A stretch of 64,000 bases of DNA. It comes from Parafannyhessea umbonata (lineage in GTDB: Bacteria > Actinomycetota > Coriobacteriia > Coriobacteriales > Atopobiaceae). The notes under the pieces are model-generated. The model was not told the origin of the DNA. It did not search any database and was given only the letters and a program-made list of their open reading frames with translations. This document shows, in pieces, positions 16,947-23,010 of the stretch; within the stretch, counting starts at the first letter, position 1; every line of letters starts with the position of its first letter. The translations under genes and the position numbers were made by a program. The DNA is taken from positions 372,001 through 436,000 of the forward strand of contig NZ_LT629759.1 of the NCBI RefSeq assembly GCF_900105025.1. The letters are read 5' to 3'.

Positions 16947-17327
16947 CTAGTACCTGACCCTGAAGTCGGGTTCGCATTCGACGGGAGGTATGTCTTCCTT
17001 CTCGTCGATTACGTATTCGATGGGGTAGCGCGCATAGGCGTGCGCGAATGCGCCGAAGAACGCGGATATCTGCTCTTGCGTGCCCTGGAGCTCCATGGTG
17101 ACAGTTTGCCAGTCGGGTTCGTTGCGGACCCACCCAGTGCATCCGACGGAGTTGGCGCAGCGCGAGGAGGTCCAGCGAAAGCCGACGCCCTGTACTTCTC
17201 CTCTGAAGACGAGGTGAAGTCTGCGGACGTCGCCCGTGGCGCCCATGCCGGCGGCGTCTTGCGCCGCGCTGGTGGGGGAGCTGTCGTCGGAGGAACCGCG
17301 GCCGTCCGTAGTGTCGGTGTGGAGCAT
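16947..17327 (-). CDS. acyP: Acylphosphatase
   Basis: Hydrolyses acyl-phosphate bonds. The ~90-residue acylphosphatase domain lies at the C terminus and contains the catalytic signature FRGEVQGVGFRWT (Arg of GVGFR) and the second motif GWVRNEPDWQTVTMELQG with the catalytic Asn. The product is 126 residues, with an extra ~35-residue polar N-terminal tail beyond the usual length. ATG 17327 has GGAGG 5-6 bases upstream; an in-frame TTG at 17339 is less likely. It is divergent from degV, and the two genes share an 81-base spacer. Confidence 0.92.
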   Translation of the reverse strand: MLHTDTTDGRGSSDDSSPTSAAQDAAGMGATGDVRRLHLVFRGEVQGVGFRWTSSRCANSVGCTGWVRNEPDWQTVTMELQGTQEQISAFFGAFAHAYARYPIEYVIDEKEDIPPVECEPDFRVRY

Positions 17328-17342
17328 GTGGGCCTCCAAGTC

Positions 17343-17408: not shown

Positions 17409-18353
17409 ATGAAGGCCAAGTTCAACCTGATGACAGACTCGACGTGCGACTTCTCGATCCAGGACATCGAGAGGTCGGGGCTCACGTTCCTTCCCTTCAC
17501 CTATACGGAGGCCGGAAAGCCCGACGGCGGCCTTTCGGGACTGGATGACCTTTTCCAGTCCATGAGCGCCCACGACTTCTATGAGCGCATCCGCTGGGGC
17601 GCGACCCCCAAGACGTCACAGCCGTCGCAGCTGGTGTACGAGGAGGCGTTCCGCAAGGCGGCTGAGCTGGACGTCCCCACCGTGCTGATGACGATCTCGA
17701 GCGGAATCTCGGGCGGCTACAACGGCGCCTGCACGGCGCTCGACCGCGTGCAGGAGGAGCTGGGTCGCGAGCTCCCCATCTACATTGTGGACACGCTGCT
17801 GGCATCCACGTCCTTCTACCTGCTGCTTGAGGAGGGCGTGCGCCAGCGCGACCGCGGGCTTACCGCACAGGAGTTCGTGCGCTGGGCTGAGGACGCACGC
17901 TACCACGTGTGGACCATCTTCATGGTGGACAACCTGGACACGCTGCACCGCGGAGGCCGCATTCCCAAGTCCGTCGCGCTCGTCTCGTCCGCGCTGGACG
18001 CGAAGCCGCTGCTGTCCTGGAAGCTGAACGGCGAGCTCACGATCCTGGGCGTGACGCGCGGCCGCAAGAAGGGCATGCGCAAGATGAAGGAGTACTACGA
18101 GAAGCACCGCTCGCAGCTGCAGTACCCGGCCGTGGCGGCCATCGGCAACGCGGACTGCGAGAACGACGGCCTGCGCCTGGGTGCCATGGTGGCGGACATA
18201 GATGACTCCGCGCGCATCCTCACGTCTACCATCGGGCCCACGATCGGCTGCCACGTGGGACCGGGCATGCTCTCGTGCTGCTTCTGGGGCGAGGACCGTC
18301 GCGAGAAGCAGAACGCGATCGCCGGCAAGGTCAAGGGCGTCCGCCAGGGATAG
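17409..18353 (+). CDS. DegV family fatty-acid-binding protein
   Basis: DegV (FakB-type) proteins bind fatty acids and, in Gram-positives, present them to the FakA kinase. The 314-residue length is slightly above average. Family motifs are visible: MTDSTCDFS at the N terminus, ATPKTSQPS near residue 62, LMTISSGISGGYNGA near 97-111, VDTLLAS near 127, and the loop VDNLDTLHRGGRIPK near 176-190. AGGACAGG provides the binding site. No FakA gene is in the window, so its partner is unlinked. The tannase-like gene follows by 22 bases and may be co-transcribed. Confidence 0.9.
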   Translation: MKAKFNLMTDSTCDFSIQDIERSGLTFLPFTYTEAGKPDGGLSGLDDLFQSMSAHDFYERIRWGATPKTSQPSQLVYEEAFRKAAELDVPTVLMTISSGISGGYNGACTALDRVQEELGRELPIYIVDTLLASTSFYLLLEEGVRQRDRGLTAQEFVRWAEDARYHVWTIFMVDNLDTLHRGGRIPKSVALVSSALDAKPLLSWKLNGELTILGVTRGRKKGMRKMKEYYEKHRSQLQYPAVAAIGNADCENDGLRLGAMVADIDDSARILTSTIGPTIGCHVGPGMLSCCFWGEDRREKQNAIAGKVKGVRQG

Positions 18354-18375: not shown

Positions 18376-20355
18376 ATGGACATGAGCAGAAGGGGCTTCC
18401 TCGCGCTTGCGGGGGCGGCATCGGCCATGGGGCTTGCCGCCTGCAGGGGCAACGGGAAGTCTGACAAGCCGGAGGACGTGAAGGTCAACCCGAACGAGTA
18501 CAAGAAGCTCGCGATCGATGACTCCGCCTGGAACTACGACGAGACGAACGACTGCTACTACCAGCTGGGCCTTCCGTACTGCACGGACCCGGCGGCCGGC
18601 AGCTACGAGTCGCTTGCGATATACGTCCCGGGCGCCTACTTCAAGGGCGAGAAGAGCGGGAGCACCTATCGCTGTAAGATCGCGCCGGACGCAAGGGTGG
18701 GCTCGTTCACGCCGAAGACCGCACCTGTGGTCATGCCCATCAACTCCGCGCGCCTTTCCGCGCAGAGCTGCCCGACGGCGTACTCGTACGATGGGCTGGG
18801 GACGTATCTGAAGAAGGGCCTCGTGTACGTGTACGCGGGGTTCCGCGGACGTTCCGGCGGCTACGTGAGCGACTCGAGCGAACAGTACTCCGGCGGCGCG
18901 CCGTGGCCGGTGGTGGACCTGAAGGCTGCGGTGCGCTACCTGCGCTACAACGCCGGGAGCCTGCCGTGCAACGCAAAGCGCCTGTTCGTGTTTGGCTACG
19001 GTGCGGGTGGCGGCGTGTCCGCGTGCCTGGGCGCCCTGGGCGACTGTGGCATCTTCACGCCGTACCTCTCCAAGATAGGTGCGGCCATGCACGATGCGGA
19101 CGGCAAGTCTATATCCGACCGGGTGTTTGGCTCGGCGTCGTGGTGCCCCATCACGTCGTACGACACGGCCGACAGCGGCTACGAATGGATGATGGGGCAG
19201 TTTGCGGAGGACGGCGCCCGCGCGGACGGCCAGTGGACCAAGGCGCTTTCCGACGACCTCGCGACCGCGTACGGCAAGCTCGTGAACGAGCTCGGCCTCA
19301 CCGGCGCGGACGACAAGGCCCTGAGGCTGGAGCCCGTGCAGGATGGTAGCTACCTTTCCGGCACGTACTACGACTACATGCTCCAGACGATCGAGGGGTC
19401 CGCGGAGAAGTTCTTCTCGACCACGAGCTTTCCCTATACCTACACGCCCGGGCGCCTGGTGGACCCGGCGTTTCCCGGCGACCCCAACATAAACTCGGAC
19501 AGCGCGGTCGAGATCGACGTGATGACCGGCGCGGTGGAGGACGCGTCGGGCGCGGGCGAGAAGGACGCGGACGCGGCGGCCGACGGCGTGGCCGCGGCTT
19601 CTGGCGCGTCGTCCTCGCCGGCGGGAGCTGCCGCGGCGGATGGCTCCGCTGCGGCGAAGTCGGGCGATGACGCCGGCGCGGGGGCGGCATCCGCGGCGAG
19701 TGGCGTCGCCGTGGTGCAGTCCACGGTGTACAACGACGCCGAGAGCTACGTGAGCGCGCTGAACGGGGACGACCGGTGGATCACGTACAGCCCGAGCGCC
19801 GCCAGCGTGACCATCACGAGCATGTGGGACTTCGTGAAGCATTGCCGTCCCGCTCAGAAAGGCGTGTGCGCGTTTGACGCGCTGGACCGCTCCACCACGT
19901 CTAACCAGCTGTTTGGCGTGGACGACGAGTCGAGCCTGCACTTCGACGAGACGGTGGCGACCCTTCTGGGCGACAACGCGGACAAGTACGCCGATCTGAA
20001 GGGCTGGAAGGACGACCTGGTGAGTGACTGGGCGCAGGACATCGTGAAGCTGGACTCGCTTAAGACGGACATGCAGAGCCGCGTGAACGCGATGAACCCG
20101 CTGTACGCCCTGAGCGGCCACTATGCCGGGTTTGGCTCGTGCGAGGTCGCGCCGCACTGGCGCATCAACACGGGGCTGTTCCAGTCCGCGACGGCGCTGA
20201 CCGCGGATGTGAACCTGGCGGTTGCGCTCGGCGCGTATGACGGGGTGAAGGACGTGGCGTTCACGCCCGTGTGGGGCAGGGGCTTCGAGCTTGCGGAGGC
20301 GTCTGGCGACGCGCAGGAGAACTTTGTAAGCTGGGTTACAGACTGCTGCAAGTAG
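18376..20355 (+). CDS. Tat-exported tannase-family lipoprotein, probable pseudoenzyme
   Basis: A 659-residue alpha/beta-hydrolase of the subtype B tannase family. The N terminus carries a twin-arginine motif (SRRGFL) and a lipobox LAAC with Cys23, so it is predicted to be a folded, exported lipoprotein. Family blocks include the IYVPGAYF strand near residue 82 and SGGAPWPVVDLKAAVRYLRY near 172-191. At the nucleophile elbow the sequence is GYGAGGG (G209 where Ser is expected in G-x-S-x-G), and the C-terminal block after VWGRGFELAE lacks the usual His. Hydrolysis is therefore doubtful. An Ala/Ser/Asp-rich disordered insert covers about 385-449. TTG 18370 is an alternative start. Confidence 0.75.
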   Translation: MDMSRRGFLALAGAASAMGLAACRGNGKSDKPEDVKVNPNEYKKLAIDDSAWNYDETNDCYYQLGLPYCTDPAAGSYESLAIYVPGAYFKGEKSGSTYRCKIAPDARVGSFTPKTAPVVMPINSARLSAQSCPTAYSYDGLGTYLKKGLVYVYAGFRGRSGGYVSDSSEQYSGGAPWPVVDLKAAVRYLRYNAGSLPCNAKRLFVFGYGAGGGVSACLGALGDCGIFTPYLSKIGAAMHDADGKSISDRVFGSASWCPITSYDTADSGYEWMMGQFAEDGARADGQWTKALSDDLATAYGKLVNELGLTGADDKALRLEPVQDGSYLSGTYYDYMLQTIEGSAEKFFSTTSFPYTYTPGRLVDPAFPGDPNINSDSAVEIDVMTGAVEDASGAGEKDADAAADGVAAASGASSSPAGAAAADGSAAAKSGDDAGAGAASAASGVAVVQSTVYNDAESYVSALNGDDRWITYSPSAASVTITSMWDFVKHCRPAQKGVCAFDALDRSTTSNQLFGVDDESSLHFDETVATLLGDNADKYADLKGWKDDLVSDWAQDIVKLDSLKTDMQSRVNAMNPLYALSGHYAGFGSCEVAPHWRINTGLFQSATALTADVNLAVALGAYDGVKDVAFTPVWGRGFELAEASGDAQENFVSWVTDCCK

Positions 20356-20487: not shown

Positions 20488-20985
20488 ATGTACAAAGTCG
20501 GCCAGTATGTAGTTCATCCGGGACAAGGCGTCTGCAAGGTGGAGGCCATCGAGGACGAGCCGCAGGCTACGTACATGCTCATGCCCGTTGGCGGGCGCCA
20601 TCCCATGCGCATCAGCTTCCCGGTGGCCAGCGAGGGGCGGCTTCGTCCCGTCATCGGTCGCAGGCAGGCGGAGCAGATCATAGGCGAGTACACGGAGCTC
20701 CCGCTGGAGGAGCTTTCCTCCCGCAGCAACGCGCTGGAGGAGGAGCGCTTCAAGACGGAGCTGCGTCGTGGCAGCTGCAGGGACGCCGTGCGCATCGCGA
20801 AGACGTTCCGCACCCGCATCGAGCAGGTCAAGGCGTCCAACAAGCGACCTCCCGTTGCCTACGAGCGCATCTTCAAGCAGGCGAGCGAACGCTCCCTGCA
20901 GGAGCTGGCGGTCGCCATGGGCGTCTCCGAGGACGACGTGGTGCAGCTGCTGAAGGCAAGCGAGGAGGACGCCCGCAACAACTAG
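20488..20985 (+). CDS. carD: CarD-family transcriptional regulator
   Basis: CarD/CdnL proteins bind the RNA polymerase beta subunit and stabilise open complexes at housekeeping promoters. The N-terminal RNAP-interaction Tudor-like domain starts at VGQYVVHPGQGVCKVEAIED and ends near residue 65. The C-terminal all-helical DNA-binding domain covers about 70-155. At 165 residues it is of normal size. A GAGAGGAGC site precedes the ATG. The 132-base spacer upstream is A/T-rich for this genome and must hold its promoter, though I could not fix a clear -10/-35 pair. Confidence 0.92.
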   Translation: MYKVGQYVVHPGQGVCKVEAIEDEPQATYMLMPVGGRHPMRISFPVASEGRLRPVIGRRQAEQIIGEYTELPLEELSSRSNALEEERFKTELRRGSCRDAVRIAKTFRTRIEQVKASNKRPPVAYERIFKQASERSLQELAVAMGVSEDDVVQLLKASEEDARNN

Positions 20986-21181: not shown

Positions 21182-21478
21182 ATGGCAATCACGAACGAAG
21201 ACTCCAAGAACCGCGCGATCATCACCGTCCTGGGCAGCGACCGCTCGGGCATCGTTGCCGCCGTGGCGACGGCCCTGTCGCAGCACGACGCGAACATTCT
21301 GGACATATCGCAGACCATCCTGCAGGGCACGTTCACGATGACCATGCTCGTGGACCTGGGCCCGTCCGACGTCGAGTTCTCGAAGCTGCAGCAGCAGCTG
21401 GACTCGCTGTCGAAGGAGATCGGCGTCCAGATCACCATGCAGCGCGAAGAGGTCTTCAACTTCATGTACCGCCTGTAG
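21182..21478 (+). CDS. ACT-domain protein (UPF0237 type)
   Basis: A single 98-residue ACT domain of the UPF0237 family. The core AIITVLGSDRSGIVAAVATALSQHDANILDISQTI is split here into the usual beta-alpha-beta pattern, with the ligand-binding loop GSDRSG. ACT domains bind amino acids or similar small molecules. The partner UPF0210 gene, often adjacent in Gram-positives, is absent; citrate synthase follows after 65 bases. A TACAAT box at 21119-21124 may be its -10. GGGGA precedes the ATG. Confidence 0.9.
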   Translation: MAITNEDSKNRAIITVLGSDRSGIVAAVATALSQHDANILDISQTILQGTFTMTMLVDLGPSDVEFSKLQQQLDSLSKEIGVQITMQREEVFNFMYRL

Positions 21479-21543: not shown

Positions 21544-23010
21544 ATGTCTTATGCGTACGATCCGCTGGTCGAAAGGCCGCGGCACTACCTCACGCCTGAA
21601 AACACCTCCGCGTTCGAGCACATCGTCGACCGGTACCCCATGCCGTCCGTCGGGCTTGGCAGGCCGGAGGTCTCGGACCTGCTGTACGAGGGTGGCTGCA
21701 ACGTGGACGTGGTGCCGGTCGAGCTGTACTCCCGCTACGACGTGAAGCGCGGCCTGCGCAACGCGGACGGCTCTGGCGTGCTGGTGGGCCTCACCACCAT
21801 CTCTAACGTGCATGGCTACAACAAGACGGCCGAGGGCGTCGTCCCAGACGAGGGGCGCCTGACGTATCGCGGCTATGACGCGGCGGAGCTTGTATCGGCG
21901 GCGCAGCGCGAGGGGCGCTTTGGCTACGAGGAGGTCTCGTACCTGCTGCTCACGGGCCAGCTGCCCACCCAGGCGCAGCTGGACGACTTCCGCGCCCGCA
22001 TTGGCAGCCGCCGTCAGCTGCCCGAGGGCTACCTGCGAATCTTCCCGCGCACCACGTTCAGCCCCTCCATCATGAACGTGCTGCAGCGTGCAACGCTGCT
22101 TCTGTACGCTTTTGACAACAATCCGGACGACACGAGCCCCGTGCACGAGGTGGACGTGGCGCTTTCCATGCTTGGCCGCTGGCCGCGCGTGGCCTCCATC
22201 GCACACCAGGCGTACGTGGGCGCCCGCACGGGCGTCGTGCCCACGGTGCCGCCCGCGCGCGAGGACTTCTCGATGGCCGAGACGATCCTGGACGTGCTGC
22301 GAGGCGACGAGGGCTTCACCCGCGACGAGGCCATGATGCTCGACGTGATGCTCATGCTCCACGCGGAGCACGGCGGCGGCAACAACTCCACGTTCACGTG
22401 CAGGGTCCTGTCGTCCTCCGGCACCGACGCGTACTCCGCGTACGCGGGCGCGCTCGGCTCGCTCAAGGGCCCCCGTCACGGCGGCGCGAACGCGAAGGCC
22501 GGCGAGATGGTGGACGACGCCGCGGAGCACATCAAGGACTGGTCGTCCGACGACCAGGTGGTCAACTACCTCACGCGCGTGCTTGCGGGCAAGGCGTTTG
22601 ACGGCAAGGGACTGATCTATGGCATCGGACACGCGGTCTATACAAAGAGCGACCCTCGCGCACAGATCGTGAAGGGCTACGCCCGCGAGCTCGCACGCAA
22701 GAGAGGCACGGCAGACGCCGAGAAGTTCGAGCTCATAGAGCGGATAGAGCGCCTTGCGCCTGAGGTCATGCGTGACGTGCGCGGCATAGAGAAGCCGCTG
22801 TGCGCGAACATCGACCTGTACACGGGCTTCGTCTACCACATGCTCGGCATTCCGAAGGACCTCTTCACTCCCATATTCGCCATCGCGCGCATGAGCGGCT
22901 GGGCGGCGCACCGCATGGAGGAGCTCTATGGACCGGCGCGCATCATACGCCCCGCATACAACTCCTACATGCAGGCGCAGACGTACGTGCCGCTTGCGGA
23001 GCGCAGGTGA
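21544..23010 (+). CDS. gltA: Citrate synthase
   Basis: Condenses acetyl-CoA with oxaloacetate. The 488-residue protein carries the citrate synthase His motifs: HAEHGGGNNSTF near residue 272, GPRHGGAN near 310 and GIGHAVYTKSDPRA near 361. The signature LSSSGTDAYSAYAGALGSLKG precedes the second His; only parts are quoted. It is longer than the 430-residue E. coli enzyme because of an N-terminal extension, a form found in anaerobic Gram-positives. AAGGAGACGCA precedes the ATG. In an organism without an evident full cycle here, it probably supplies 2-oxoglutarate for glutamate. The stop overlaps the next start (TGATG). Confidence 0.95.
   Translation: MSYAYDPLVERPRHYLTPENTSAFEHIVDRYPMPSVGLGRPEVSDLLYEGGCNVDVVPVELYSRYDVKRGLRNADGSGVLVGLTTISNVHGYNKTAEGVVPDEGRLTYRGYDAAELVSAAQREGRFGYEEVSYLLLTGQLPTQAQLDDFRARIGSRRQLPEGYLRIFPRTTFSPSIMNVLQRATLLLYAFDNNPDDTSPVHEVDVALSMLGRWPRVASIAHQAYVGARTGVVPTVPPAREDFSMAETILDVLRGDEGFTRDEAMMLDVMLMLHAEHGGGNNSTFTCRVLSSSGTDAYSAYAGALGSLKGPRHGGANAKAGEMVDDAAEHIKDWSSDDQVVNYLTRVLAGKAFDGKGLIYGIGHAVYTKSDPRAQIVKGYARELARKRGTADAEKFELIERIERLAPEVMRDVRGIEKPLCANIDLYTGFVYHMLGIPKDLFTPIFAIARMSGWAAHRMEELYGPARIIRPAYNSYMQAQTYVPLAERR

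Follow-up and report, generated by a model that had tools for sequence, protein, structure and literature searches.

The closest described systems are the bacterial tannases, which are divided into subtypes A and B. According to the accessible parts of PMC4218992, the subtype B enzyme TanBLp has the catalytic triad Ser163, Asp419 and His451 and contacts gallate through Lys343, Glu357 and Asp421; the TanA proteins compared there have Gln at the Asp419 position, and the gallate contacts and the Gly-X-Ser-X-Gly motif are conserved. For CbTan1, a subtype A enzyme, the accessible text of PMC8958541 gives Ser216, His611 and Gln577, with Asp579, Lys469 and Glu483 as the contacts. A signal peptide together with a mass near 66 kDa has been used to delimit subtype A (PMC5828091, in the portion available), and the signal-peptide criterion is worded the opposite way in the available portion of PMC8958541. 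PMC5828091 also states, in the same portion, that TanAAp of Atopobium parvulum is active, with the lowest activity among the bacterial tannases. A later paper still reasons from this activity (PMC12259404, in its accessible passages).

The window, i.e., the whole stretch of 64,000 nucleotides of Parafannyhessea umbonata that was analysed, contains a tannase-like gene that is present in one copy in the genome (Table 1). Another ATG at 18202, within degV, lies in the same frame, which from there is open to 717 aa. The product reaches 741 bits over its whole length against NF041555, the NCBIfam model of subtype A tannases with a curated cut-off of 550. Against NF041556, the subtype B model, it reaches 216 bits with a curated cut-off of 300, and membership of subtype B was thus rejected. 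The original prediction had proposed subtype B as the comparison group, which is the wrong subtype; among the curated families subtype A comes closest, and the size of 659 aa and the putative twin-arginine and lipobox-like start would also agree with it. It was right about the tannase family and the retained fold. The best sequence matches in the PDB are solved tannases (6yq4, E 2e-31), and the predicted model (mean pLDDT 83.7) aligns with 7q6y at a Z of 40.6 and an rmsd of 2.7 over 435 residues, i.e., it has a tannase-type alpha/beta hydrolase fold. The low-complexity linker ranges from 0 to 123 residues across the four clades compared. The export signals that had been claimed are also present in the sequence. 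SRRGFLAL, which we take to be a twin-arginine motif, and LAAC with Cys23, presumably a lipobox, would mark the product as a Tat-exported lipoprotein.

Table 1. Features of the tannase-like gene and its surroundings (positions within the window; "clade" is the 24-row clade of the window protein).
Feature	Positions	Strand	Basis
Acylphosphatase gene, divergent, upstream locus marker	16947..17339	-	Pfam PF00708, synteny
DegV family gene, 22 bp upstream of the tannase-like gene	17409..18353	+	Pfam PF02645
Tannase_A-family lipoprotein gene (659-codon ORF, ATG to stop, 659 aa) without nucleophile Ser and catalytic His	18376..20355	+	ORF read from the sequence, profile score, alignment
Putative export signal: twin-arginine MDMSRRGFLAL and lipobox-like GLAAC (Cys23)	18376..18444	+	sequence reading
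Codon 60, Cys	18553..18555	+	24/24 clade, 2/93 other rows
Codon 132, Cys	18769..18771	+	23/24 clade, 6/93 other rows
Codon 209 (GGT), Gly at the nucleophile Ser position	19000..19002	+	HMMER and family alignments
Low-complexity Ala/Ser/Gly/Asp linker, residues 373-444, pLDDT <50	19492..19707	+	model, sequence
Stretch from Arg467 to Trp484	19774..19827	+	Arg 23/24, Trp 24/24 clade; other rows 5/93, 0/93
Codon 490, Cys	19843..19845	+	23/24 clade, 20/93 other rows; least specific
Codon 495, Lys, gallate contact retained	19858..19860	+	alignment
Codon 509, Ser replacing the Glu that contacts gallate	19900..19902	+	alignment
Codon 603, Gln aligned with Asp419 of TanBLp, as usual in subtype A	20182..20184	+	alignment, PMC4218992 (accessible parts)
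Codon 605, Ala replacing the Asp that contacts gallate	20188..20190	+	alignment
Codon 637, Phe replacing the catalytic His	20284..20286	+	alignment
CarD-like gene, downstream locus marker	20488..20985	+	Pfam PF02559, synteny
ACT-domain gene, locus marker	21182..21478	+	Pfam PF13740, synteny
Citrate synthase gene, locus marker	21544..23010	+	Pfam PF00285, synteny

The catalytic residues of the family are missing from this protein. It had been claimed that the nucleophile elbow reads GYGAGG, with Gly209 in place of Ser, and that the C-terminal His block is changed; both claims hold. Residues 206-213 are FGYGAGGG, and the HMMER alignments, ungapped in this region, pair Gly209 with the Ser of GTSAGG in 6yq4 and 4j0g and with the Ala of GTAAGG in 4jui. 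An alignment of 140 homologues agrees, and the model predicts a strand at 203-208 followed by a helix from 209, as in a nucleophile elbow. The protein has GYGAG where Gly-X-Ser-X-Gly is expected. The C-terminal VWGxGH block, WGQGHG in 6yq4, is VWGRGF, and the catalytic His of subtype A is replaced by Phe. The family profile places the same blocks on the solved tannases. No alignment put a Ser and a His at the true catalytic positions, and this check thus did not refute the claim. The acid position carries the Gln of subtype A and not the triad Asp of subtype B. Two of the three gallate contacts are replaced, the Glu and the Asp, and the Lys is retained.

A match of any strength was found in 122 of 140 Atopobiaceae genomes, and the homologues that were fetched, from this family and beyond, represent part of the matches listed. 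The 182 loci gave 184 ORFs, of which 143 were distinct when told apart by their last 250 residues. Three of these were under 380 aa and were left out; 140 were aligned, and residues were counted in the 135 rows with all six functional columns, five rows being without one or more of them. The nucleophile position holds Ser in 72 rows, Gly in 55, Ala in 8 and no other residue. Both Ser and His are kept in 70 rows and lost in 33; Ser is lost and His kept in 30, and His alone is lost in 2. In the other families of the order, ten genomes have a match over the cut-off, and the six of these that were read all carry the full residue set. The tree was built by a quick method, with SH-aLRT as the only support, from 117 of the 135 rows (90% identity filter) and with the six functional columns removed. 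It requires at least 12 changes between Ser and non-Ser and a minimum of five between His and non-His. A single loss of Ser was rejected by forcing the 58 non-Ser rows, a group named by residues and not ahead of seeing the tree, into one clade (log-likelihood lower by 807, p-AU 4e-56). The direction of change is most simply a loss because the outer clade and the characterised tannases carry Ser.

The clades differ strongly in their residues. The outer clade (32 rows) has Ser, Lys and Glu in 32 rows each and His and Asp in 31 each. In the sister clade (49 rows), His is kept in 49/49, and the nucleophile position is Ser in 25, Gly in 18 and Ala in 6. A 34-row subclade within it has lost both Glu and Lys in 34/34 rows, even in those bearing Ser, and shows at least seven Ser/non-Ser changes; the substrate of its Ser-bearing members is probably not gallate. 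The acid position of this subclade (e.g., L009, L013, L026 and L142) is Asp in 31 of the 34 rows, like in subtype B. The clade of the window protein comprises 24 rows (SH-aLRT 96), including L088 on a long branch. It had been suggested that the same substitution should be sought in relatives, and it was found throughout this clade: the nucleophile position is Gly in 24/24, and the His position is His in 0/24 (Phe in 16, Tyr in 5, others in 3). Among the gallate contacts, Glu is present in none of the 24 rows, Asp in one and Lys in seven. The putative export residues are kept, C23 in 23/24 rows and RR in 22/24. To judge from these residues, the loss is old and common to the clade. Chance or sequencing error as the source of Gly209 and Phe637 was rejected on the same counts.

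Other members of the family show changes of their own. L052, L053 and L166 form a separate small clade in which the elbow reads GAGSSGA or GVGSSGA and Leu replaces the His, by these residues another route to the same loss. Interrupted or split copies were seen in other genomes (L164, L129, L130, L168). G114:C4 has internal stops, and L129 and L130 are split; the split in L168, a relative that was dropped, lies at a run of N and is an assembly gap.

The Ser, Cys and His residues that at least 23 of the 24 clade rows have in common were screened for a replacement of the missing nucleophile or His, without a convincing candidate. Two of them, Cys257 and His522, do not qualify because the canonical clade conserves them as well. 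His239 recurs in 33 of the 34 sister-subclade rows, and His522 is present in every row compared. No clade-conserved His is new, and the new Cys60, Cys132 and Cys490 lie outside the known catalytic places. By the established chemistry of serine hydrolases, the canonical tannase mechanism is impossible with Gly209 and Phe637: an acyl-enzyme can be neither formed nor resolved in this way, and the protein would be expected to lack the activity. PMC8958541 calls the Ser-to-Ala variants of TanBLp inactive. The window protein is probably not an ordinary esterase.

The gene stands at a recognizable chromosomal locus. Five markers were used, the divergent acylphosphatase gene and DegV upstream and the CarD, ACT and citrate synthase genes downstream on the same strand, within flanks that measured up to 1.5 kb at L002-L030 and mostly 4-6 kb at the other loci. 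With orientation required, at least one marker accompanies 97 of the 135 rows, 59 of which are without Ser (Ser and His in 37, Ser only in 1, His only in 29, neither in 30). A single marker is weak evidence, as 28 of these 97 rows have just one, many of them with short flanks. The 38 rows without a marker include 4 without Ser (Ser and His in 33, Ser only in 1, His only in 1, neither in 3), so that 59 of the 63 Ser-less copies lie beside at least one marker. At least two markers are found in 69 rows (Ser and His in 31, Ser only in 0, His only in 14, neither in 24). With 31 intact and 38 Ser-less rows in this set, both forms, intact and degenerate, occupy one locus. In the window's clade, at least two markers are present in 23/24 rows, and L088 has none. 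The DegV gene adjoins the tannase-like gene in only part of the loci. UbiD, looked for as part of a tannin pathway, was found in none of seven genomes. This absence does not separate intact from degenerate forms because copies that have both residues, Ser and His, are present in two of the seven (G064 and G071).

The gene is kept under purifying selection, which is less strict than for DegV and is not strict in itself. By the Nei-Gojobori method, the dN/dS between the window protein and its nearest relative, L002, comes to 0.144 for the full length; residues 40-378 give 0.118, residues 448-659 give 0.099 and the linker gives 0.292. Between the neighbouring genes and their counterparts in the genome of L002 (L032), it is 0.022 for DegV, 0.067 for CarD and 0.184 for ACT. 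With the next relative, L003, the value is 0.379, higher than for DegV (0.159) and ACT (0.209) and close to CarD (0.342) in the same genome (L182). Pairs of over 80% identity in which both members have Ser and His give 0.048-0.201, a range that includes the pair with L002, and five pairs of over 80% identity within the clade give 0.10-0.17. Catalytic residues that are lost in a gene kept under selection are what would be expected of a pseudoenzyme.

The functional columns are lost more often than other conserved columns. References for an enrichment test were chosen by the tree, namely the 32-row outer clade and the 15 sister-clade rows outside the 34-row subclade; a column was conserved at 90% or more in the reference and lost below 50% in the window's clade. 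Of 131 conserved columns, 9 are lost, 4/4 functional ones versus 5/127 others (p 1e-5), with the Glu column, at only 87%, below the threshold. Against the outer clade alone, 4/5 functional and 24/169 other columns are lost (p 0.0025), and the divergence is therefore broader than the active site. New residues have also become nearly invariant in the clade. Besides those of Table 1, positions 323, 451 and 457 are clade-conserved. Cys132 is accompanied by Cys490 in 22 of the 24 clade rows and in none of the 93 others, a pattern compatible with a disulfide, with Cys60 as a third candidate.

The published TanAAp appears to be a related case. A. parvulum DSM 20469 (G023) has one match to NF041555 (L143, 847 bits), with two NF041556 stretches in the same frame. 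L143 is presumably TanAAp because it comes from the same strain and is the only candidate found. It has Ala at the nucleophile position and Asn at the acid position and keeps the His; among the gallate contacts, Lys is replaced by Leu and Glu by Ala, and Asp is kept. L142, a relative from another genome, is 96.7% identical and has the same residues. No remark on the missing Ser was found in the accessible parts of the literature on tannases and TanAAp, a search to which the original TanAAp paper did not belong, and the literature search found no paper that links tannase with the term pseudoenzyme.

We lean towards the view that the window gene encodes an exported, lipid-anchored pseudoenzyme, i.e., a former tannase repurposed at the Atopobiaceae locus, whose cleft binds a ligand or partner other than gallate. 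At its fixed chromosomal site, a gene for a subtype A tannase would have taken on a new role; its product would be exported through the twin-arginine and lipobox signals and held at the cell surface by a lipid anchor with its tannase fold. Gly209 and Phe637 leave it unable to carry out acyl-enzyme chemistry of the tannase type. The cleft that once held the active site, where an aromatic residue now replaces the His, would most likely have become a binding surface, and the newly invariant Arg467 and Trp484, which are near the cleft in the sequence, may line it, judging by sequence order. The observations behind this view are the residue losses, the fold match, the loss shared by the clade, the conserved locus, the purifying selection and the new, nearly invariant residues; the fold, the selection and these residues also suggest that some ligand is bound, which is unlikely to be gallate. 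The most likely function would be binding by the cleft, followed by binding through another face and then by unusual residual catalysis. A wider and more tentative view is that the locus encodes a surface binding protein that is widespread in the Atopobiaceae and for which ester hydrolysis has ceased to be the selected function even in many Ser-bearing members, with Ser, Gly and Ala interchanging at the elbow. TanAAp, the one member known to have been characterised, would then be no tannase, and the name "subtype A tannase" would be wrong for most members at the locus.

Other explanations have to be weighed against binding by the cleft. The protein might serve as a structural or adhesion module, a rigid surface protein of hydrolase fold that would bind a protein or a cell-wall or host glycan by its outer face, with the old cleft idle. 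Such a module would suit the retained export and lipid-anchor signals, the emptied active site, the mid-protein low-complexity linker and the new conserved cysteines, which could stiffen an extracellular protein. However, Arg467 and Trp484 lie near the gallate-contact Lys495 in the sequence, and the elbow is only Ser, Gly or Ala in 135/135 rows, which suggests that its geometry is still constrained; we regard this explanation as unlikely. Rather more unlikely is a retained hydrolase function, through a different mechanism or as a residual activity of the kind claimed for TanAAp. The low activity reported for that protein (accessible portion of PMC5828091), presumably the Ala-bearing L143, and the remaining conserved Cys257 and His522 speak for it. 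However, these two residues are also canonical, the clade has gained no conserved His, its new cysteines are off the catalytic places, and weak activity in a preparation from E. coli may stem from a host esterase.

The original prediction itself proposed a binding protein or sensor for galloyl or other aromatic esters, and this part has been weakened. The fold and Lys495 are kept, and the Ser-to-Ala variants of TanBLp, although called inactive, were crystallised with galloyl esters (PMC8958541, in the text available). However, the Glu and Asp contacts are gone from the window protein; the clade has lost the Glu in 24/24 rows and the Asp in 23/24 and keeps the Lys in only 7/24, and the Pfam-named neighbours suggest no partner for a sensor. 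This proposal now seems very unlikely. A decaying relic on its way to loss is barely credible. Functional residues have been lost repeatedly in the family and a few copies elsewhere are interrupted (G114:C4, L129, L130), but pseudogene decay is disfavoured for the window's clade by the dN/dS of the five pairs of over 80% identity, and the clade has new, nearly invariant residues. That the clade frames are open carries little weight since the rows were selected as open frames.

The results matter for annotation, because tannase annotations can serve to predict how gut and oral bacteria metabolise polyphenols. NF041555, an equivalog model, passes proteins without the nucleophile, the His and two of the three substrate contacts; its names in this family are therefore unreliable, and the name "tannase" is doubtful for the window protein. 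Both the window protein and L143/L183 score over its cut-off without a nucleophile. TanAAp, published as a weak tannase, appears to be Ser-less, hence its reported activity can be directly rechecked. The locus also offers a natural series from an intact triad through the loss of Ser to the loss of both Ser and His. Such a series at a conserved locus suits the study of how an enzyme becomes a binding protein.

Compared with the known systems, the window protein is closest to the subtype A tannases of NF041555 (TanALp, TanASg, CbTan1). It shares with them the putative export signal, a length of about 600-660 aa, the tannase fold, the Gln at the Asp419 position, the gallate-contact Lys and a score over the cut-off, but it differs from them in having neither the nucleophile Ser nor the catalytic His nor the gallate-contact Glu and Asp. 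With subtype B (TanBLp 4j0c, 6yq4 and CbTan2 7q6y, one chain each), the fold is shared at Z 39.6-40.6 over 435-437 residues; in contrast to these enzymes, the window protein is below the NF041556 cut-off, and the triad Ser, Asp and His are all absent. TanAAp (presumably L143) is 48% identical and is likewise without Ser, having Ala instead, and CarD and ACT genes lie downstream of it. It differs by keeping the His and the Asp, and in the tree it is represented by L142 in the sister clade, where the His is kept in 49/49 rows. Judged by its residues, TanAAp is a milder case than the window protein. Cholinesterase-like adhesion proteins such as neuroligin have a hydrolase fold at the cell surface without catalysis. 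Neuroligin-1 gives only a weak match to the window protein (E 0.49), and proteins of this type serve as a working analogy, with no sign of common descent beyond the superfamily.
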